From: Microbacterium sp. RU33B
GTDB taxonomy: Bacteria; Actinomycetota; Actinomycetes; Actinomycetales; Microbacteriaceae
Length of the DNA: 64,000 bases
Direction: 5' to 3'
NCBI RefSeq assembly: GCF_900155915.1
Contig: NZ_FTPO01000001.1
Span: 1,178,001-1,242,000, forward strand
Part shown: one piece after another, positions 11,741 through 12,312 of the stretch
How positions within the stretch are numbered: position 1 is the stretch's first letter
How the letters are laid out: the number at the start of each line of letters is the position of its first letter
The notes under the pieces: model-generated
Databases searched by the model: none
What the model saw: only the letters and a program-made list of their open reading frames with translations
Told to the model about the DNA's origin: nothing
Position numbers and translations under genes: made by a program

Positions 11741-11905
11741 CGTTTTGGCCGGGTCGCGCATCCGTGGCAGAATGGACAGCTGTGCCCTGACAAGGCTCTG
11801 CCTCAGGGGAGCTCGTCGATCGGCGTCCTGCCGTCGGCCTCGGGCACAGCATCCATTCCCTTCATATTCGCGGTCGACCTGTGGCGGCCGCAGAGAGACA
11901 CGATC
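11741..11905 (+). promoter_or_regulatory. rplS leader with competing stem-loops
   Basis: The 165-base region before rplS can fold two ways. Helix A pairs CTGTGCCC at 11780-11787 with GGGCACAG at 11842-11849. Helix B pairs CCCTGA at 11785-11790 with TCAGGG at 11803-11808. They share bases 11785-11787, so both cannot form completely. A small inner hairpin CGGC/GCCG lies at 11821-11833. A -10-like CAGAAT at 11768-11773 would start transcription just before helix A. L19 leaders that autoregulate rplS are known in Firmicutes and other phyla; this one is inferred by analogy. Confidence 0.5.
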
Positions 11906-12256
11906 ATGCAGATCCTCGACGCTGTCGATGCGGCTTCGCTCCGCTCCGACATCCCCGCCTTCGCCCCCGGCGACAACGTGAAGGTGCACGTCAACATCAC
12001 GGAGGGCAACCGCTCCCGTATCCAGGTCTTCCAGGGCATCGTCATCGGCCGCTCGGGCGACGGCGTGCGCGAGACCTTCACGGTCCGCAAGATCAGCTTC
12101 CAGGTCGGCGTCGAGCGCACCTTCCCGGTGCACAGCCCGGTCATCGACCACATCGAGGTCGTGACCCGCGGTGACGTCCGTCGCGCGAAGCTCTACTACC
12201 TCCGTGCCCTCCGCGGCAAGAAGGCCAAGATCAAGGAGAAGCGCGACCACTCCTGA
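11906..12256 (+). CDS. rplS: 50S ribosomal protein L19
   Basis: The 116-residue protein begins [19 protein letters not shown] and includes [20 protein letters not shown] and a basic C-terminus ([18 protein letters not shown]), the standard L19 pattern; it sits at the 30S-50S interface. It is monocistronic: a structured leader precedes it and a strong intrinsic terminator follows at 12271-12312. This separates it from trmD, its usual operon partner in many bacteria. Confidence 0.97.
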
Positions 12257-12270
12257 TCGCGCAGTTCTCC

Positions 12271-12312
12271 GAACGACGCCCCGCCGGCTCCGCCGCGGGG
12301 CGTCGTTCTTTT
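12271..12312 (+). terminator. Intrinsic terminator after rplS
   Basis: A perfect 13-bp stem pairs 12271-12283 (GAACGACGCCCCG) with 12296-12308, topped by an inner CGGC/GCCG hairpin, and runs into TTCTTTT at 12306-12312. It begins 14 bases after the rplS stop and is a textbook rho-independent terminator. Confidence 0.85.

Follow-up and report, generated by a model that had tools for sequence, protein, structure and literature searches.

The rplS locus and its leader

The window, i.e. the whole 64,000-nucleotide stretch of Microbacterium sp. RU33B DNA analysed here, contains rplS, which encodes ribosomal protein bL19. Among named sequences, those closest to the window's RplS are from Microbacterium. 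A structured leader RNA upstream of this gene and a strong terminator after it had been proposed by a sequence-only reading. The leader was borne out by comparison with relatives, and a terminator-like stem-loop lies 3' of rplS. No site of this kind was reported inside the leader. The features of the locus are as follows.

11743-11748, + strand: −35-like TTTTGG, read directly; GTTTTGG or GGTTTGG recurs at this place upstream of rplS in the genus
11768-11773, + strand: −10-like CAGAAT, within the conserved block TGTGGCAGAATNG
11779-11787, + strand: 5' strand of helix P1, from covariation
11794-11813, + strand: hairpin P2 (11794-11798 with 11809-11813), from RNAalifold, unprompted, and pair counts
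11800-11807, + strand: octamer in the P2 loop, GCCTCAGG, first strand of the kissing helix
11814-11841, + strand: variable linker from P2 to the 3' strand of P1, which forms a local hairpin in the energy fold of the window
11842-11850, + strand: 3' strand of P1, from covariation
11870-11891, + strand: hairpin P4 (11870-11875 with 11886-11891), from RNAalifold, unprompted, and pair counts
11878-11885, + strand: octamer in the P4 loop, CCTGTGGC, second strand of the kissing helix
11892-11897, + strand: purine-rich AGAGAG abutting P4, read directly and putatively a weak Shine-Dalgarno-like sequence
11906-12256, + strand: rplS, ribosomal protein bL19, 116 aa, with relatives in nearly every genome searched
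12287-12301, + strand: terminator-like stem-loop 3' of rplS

The leader (11760-11905) folds with an energy of −66.9 kcal/mol, compared with a mean of −55.5 kcal/mol for dinucleotide shuffles (z = −2.74), and only one of 200 shuffles folded as well. A consensus scan returned no sigma-70-type promoter. Because the −10-like box at 11768-11773 is conserved, transcription of rplS is predicted to start near 11780.

Two hairpin loops of the leader pair with each other

The comparison of leaders across relatives drew on searches for RplS in 58 related genomes, 149 genomes from the family and 196 from the class. We fetched 80 named loci and 58 further regions, mostly from other families, and after orientation the upstream set comprised 224 regions, 220 of them distinct. 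An unanchored search for the best ungapped 8-mer complementarity was dropped, since other 8-mers often win in GC-rich leaders. The loops of P2 and P4 were therefore located with two weight matrices, independent of each other, which found both loops in 180 of the 220 distinct upstreams. These 180 leaders, which pass both loop thresholds, were joined by three with a lower P4 score and seven chosen by eye, most of which show a base shift or insertion in the P4 loop, giving 190 leaders. Two alignments were used: A1 has 53 rows hand-picked from 87 k-mer-diverse leaders (≤150 nt), themselves drawn from 171, and A2 holds 83 matches from the same 87.

Both P2 and P4 were predicted by RNAalifold, unprompted, on the 53 aligned leaders. 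The P2 loop has ten bases and contains GCCNCAGG, and the motif of the P4 loop among relatives is CCTGNGGC. The linker that follows P2 differs among relatives in both sequence and length. The distance from the end of P4 to the start codon is 14 nt in the window and 14-15 nt in 132 of the 190 leaders.

The two loops are complementary. P2 loop bases 11800-11807 can pair with P4 loop bases 11878-11885 in a helix of up to 8 bp, which in the window consists of seven pairs and a central U-U. Across the 190 leaders, 1417 of 1520 kissing cells are paired (93.2%), a value that falls to 20-53% when the partner is slid by one to three columns. Block permutation of the P4 loops (500 permutations) gave a mean of 1358.1 paired cells (sd 4.9), with a maximum of 1373. 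Scored by itself in A1, the kissing helix is paired in 93.6% of its cells (8.8-64.5% with slid partners) and shows a covariation of 0.087 versus 0.038 when shuffled. In A2, 95.1% of the kissing cells are paired, although the kissing helix was not part of the model that produced the alignment.

Changes in one loop are matched in the other. The sixth kissing pair occurs in every Watson-Crick state (AT 161, CG 14, GC 5 and TA 3; C-G is the natural state in Agromyces), its paired states other than A-U being found in separate family codes (f1, f3, f5, f7, f36 and f49), and the third pair changes from C-G to T-A in three leaders. The fourth pair is a U-U in 72 of the 190 leaders, including the window. 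Among the 29 leaders with an off-consensus P2 loop, 211 of 232 cells are paired with the leader's own P4 loop, as opposed to 196 with the consensus P4 loop. In two leaders from a further family, the two outermost pairs are changed with all eight positions paired: GCCACAGA with TCTGTGGC in L307, as read from the sequence, and GCCACGAG with CTTGTGGC in L303. On the best rplS tree, which is weakly supported, the sixth pair changes 12 times; a test for independent events found only one row pair on starred branches, the tree being too weak to certify independence. Both loops are near-palindromic, so that internal pairing is possible. Taken together, these counts leave little doubt that the leader forms a kissing-loop RNA structure.

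In 186 of the 190 leaders, a promoter-like block matching TGTGGCAGAATNG precedes the P2 loop. At this place (11762-11775 in the window), many relatives have TGTGGCA, the same letters as in their P4 loop, and the window has CGTGGCA. This copy was considered as a third pairing partner and rejected, as it showed no covariation with the P2 loop: among the 185 rows scoring >7 for the promoter, 990 of 1295 cells are paired, against a permutation mean of 994.7. The TGTGGCA block may merely be promoter sequence.

A terminal helix encloses P2

At the predicted 5' end, the leader is closed by a further helix, which encloses P2. It corresponds to helix A of the sequence-only reading, in which 11780-11787 (CTGTGCCC) pairs with 11842-11849 (GGGCACAG) at eight of eight positions, and it extends to nine pairs in the window (11779-11787 with 11842-11850). 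This extended helix is P1. Its 5' strand follows directly after the promoter-like block, which suggests that P1 begins at about the expected transcription start. The strands vary together among relatives (TGTGCCC/GGGCACA, TGTGCCG/CGGCACA, TGTGTCC/GGACACG and others). In A2, an alignment that was itself fitted to P1, 88.4% of the P1 cells are paired, and all five outer pairs show two-sided changes. A longer outer extension seen in the energy fold (11770-11776 with 11852-11858) was rejected as due to chance, as it lies upstream of the predicted start and is not kept in relatives.

Distribution of the element

In the window's own genome, covariance model R1 of the element matched a single place, at rplS (E = 2e-22). 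Across the phylum, 71 of 396 genomes had a match at E ≤0.1. All 26 matches with E ≤4e-6 lie directly 5' of rplS, unlike the four weaker loci that were inspected. The strong matches thus place the element in the 5' leader of one ribosomal-protein gene only, with a conserved secondary structure in which compensatory changes occur, those of P1 having been counted on the P1-fitted alignment. The sequence-only reading was right about a leader at rplS, and it overlooked both P4, which lies within the same 11760-11905 stretch, and a spread far beyond the Microbacteriaceae.

Of the 52 family codes sampled within the class Actinomycetes, 37 have the element, namely 36 from the main sample and f41. It was not found in the other 15 (f4, f22, f25, f26, f28-f34, f38, f40, f47 and f48), most of which were judged from one to three genomes. 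In a later placement of 26 upstreams, three could not be placed (L289, L295 and L310). Streptomyces, presumably f35, and many pathogens belong to this bacterial group; f22 presumably corresponds to Mycobacterium and its relatives. Outside the class, R1 gave weak matches (E 0.0015-0.1) in 30 genomes. In the 29 of these where rplS was found the matches are elsewhere, either on a different contig or a long way from rplS, and we took them as chance. The kissing-loop motifs occur in none of the 22 readable rplS upstreams of these genomes, the other 7 of the 29 being unplaceable.

Relation to known leaders

At the gathering score, no Rfam RNA leader family matched the window, where the only hits were two tRNAs elsewhere. 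The model of the L19 leader of Firmicutes, RF00556, was unmatched at E ≤10 in the window and at E ≤5 in 20 diverse leaders, with only unrelated chance families appearing. A scan of the whole locus of one strong match (L233) gave nothing. The curated families of Rfam thus do not cover this leader, in line with the sequence-only reading, which recognised no published actinobacterial family.

The closest counterpart by gene is RF00556, also a 5' leader of rplS, for which L19 autoregulation is listed as predicted in the available text of PMC3766115 and which was extended to Flavobacteria according to the available text of PMC7247131. It differs, at the level of covariance-model searching, in that its model finds no match here. 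By architecture, the closest counterpart is the mycobacterial rpsO leader, which belongs to another gene and protein. In the accessible part of PMC8470358, it is an actinobacterial ribosomal-protein leader in which a pseudoknot or kissing loops are proposed to hide the ribosome-binding site: the pseudoknot of the mycobacterial leader is required for repression by uS15, with feedback at the level of translation, and a kissing-loops fold hiding the Shine-Dalgarno sequence is proposed for M. tuberculosis. Every strong R1 match, however, precedes rplS and not rpsO. Leaders for L31 and L17 are likewise candidates from comparative analysis in the same phylum, although of other genes, in the available portion of PMC7247131, which lists no L19 leader for Actinobacteria and in which "rplS" has no occurrence. 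Nor is an actinobacterial rplS leader described in the accessible text of PMC7247131, PMC11109978, PMC3766115, PMC10931766, PMC8470358, PMC2864571 or PMC2965389. The literature searched shows L19 leaders for Firmicutes and Flavobacteria only, though an earlier description in a 2017 collection of RNA candidates is possible.

Proposed function and alternative explanations

The rplS leader is probably an uncatalogued switch that sets the amount of L19. We infer that L19 is its ligand and that control is by repression at the level of translation. Transcription would start near 11780, and the first bases of the transcript would pair with 11842-11850 to form P1, enclosing P2. Kissing of the P2 and P4 loops would then dock this 5' domain against the ribosome-binding site. 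Free bL19 would most likely bind or stabilise the docked form, which would block loading of the 30S subunit on its own message and thereby match L19 output to ribosome assembly. Autoregulation by L19 through the docked kissing form is, in our judgement, reasonably probable. The frequent U-U at the fourth kissing pair and the lack of the element in 15 of the 52 family codes, presumed mycobacterial relatives among them, speak against it. The weakness of the Shine-Dalgarno-like sequence makes pure masking of that sequence less certain. Likeness of a leader to the rRNA site of its protein is common, not universal. A search for 23S rRNA mimicry by the loop motifs found nothing: neither motif occurs with ≤2 mismatches on the sense strand of the 23S rRNA locus, as compared at the level of sequence.

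Alternatively, the leader could be a fixed structure that aids translation or protects the message with no L19 ligand, e.g. a 5'-end clamp and a spacer hairpin holding the start region open. P1 at the predicted 5' end could indeed shield the RNA, and the tight spacing between P4 and the start codon in the 132 leaders would suit such a role. Strong matches nevertheless occur at rplS only, which a general stabiliser would not explain, and ribosomal-protein leaders usually bind their product. We therefore regard a fixed structure as rather unlikely.

Far less credible is direct masking of the ribosome-binding site by pairing of CTCTGC in P2 with GCAGAG, the loops mattering for that switch alone. 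All six of these pairs can form in 86 of the 190 leaders, yet permuting the partners gives much the same number (84.7 of 190), so the match is explained by conservation, and this pairing leaves the covariation of the loops unexplained.

The sequence-only reading had helix A compete with a helix B, L19 choosing between them. Both helices are present in the window, where helix B pairs 11785-11790 (CCCTGA) with 11803-11808 (TCAGGG) at six of six positions and has 11785-11787 in common with helix A. Checked for covariation in relatives, helix A stood whereas helix B found no comparative support. Helix B has 69.1% of its cells paired versus 67.5% in shuffles and an equal 69.1% when slid by +1. P1 and helix B were also counted in 180 of the 190 leaders, the other ten having no anchor; in fixed register, all six helix B positions are paired in 41 of the 180, and helix B is largely a Microbacterium feature. 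Its 3' strand is the P2 kissing loop and hence constant in sequence, which explains why helix B had been noticed. The P2 loop itself is conserved because it pairs with the hairpin loop beside the ribosome-binding site. A switch between helices A and B is thus extremely improbable. Equally hard to credit is a DNA operator, in which the inverted repeats TGCCNCAGG/CCTGNGGCA and a third copy, TGTGGCA, at the promoter would bind a transcription factor: a TGTGGCA-like block does lie beside the −10 region in most leaders, but the copy at the promoter shows no covariation with the P2 loop, both repeats lie within covarying RNA hairpins and the distance between them varies.

Returning to L19 autoregulation through the kissing form, we tentatively advance, at a little short of even chances, a broader reading that joins it to the distribution. 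The element would be an uncatalogued L19 leader of the class Actinomycetes, in which a docking contact serves as the switch recognised by L19, a 5'-terminal domain being brought by a 7-8 bp loop-loop helix onto the hairpin at the ribosome-binding site. It would probably have been present early in the class, with later loss or replacement in some lineages, among them f22, f33 and f34.

Outside Firmicutes and Flavobacteria, next to nothing is known of how L19 synthesis is controlled. The accessible part of a 2024 review states that there is no information on how the E. coli operon holding rplS is regulated (PMC10931766), and according to the available text of PMC8470358, the control of ribosomal proteins in actinobacteria is almost entirely unknown. 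The element described here yields a precise prediction that can be probed by mutation, through loop swaps and the four natural pair types, and would make rplS the second ribosomal-protein gene of actinobacteria with loop-loop docking at its ribosome-binding site.

Other conserved sequences upstream of rplS

Some rplS upstreams show conserved sequences of other kinds. Eight f33 upstreams (L294, L297, L298, L300-L302, L304 and L305) are without the kissing-loop element; several f33 upstreams have GATGAGGAACCGC before the start codon, and some GGCCGGGTGGACCTCCGCGTGC, perhaps marking another leader. The three f22 upstreams (L286, L293 and L296), from which the kissing-loop element is absent, have blocks like GCACGAACCGGTCG and CAGGTTCCTCTG, with a possible GAACC/GGTTC pairing. 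In another class of the phylum, L271 and L273 have CTTGTGTGTAAACC in common, followed by an inverted repeat before rplS, possibly a separate leader. Finally, locus L159, titled Corynebacterium-like bacterium B27, encodes an RplS with 88% identity to that of the window, and both its RplS and its leader are of the Microbacteriaceae type.
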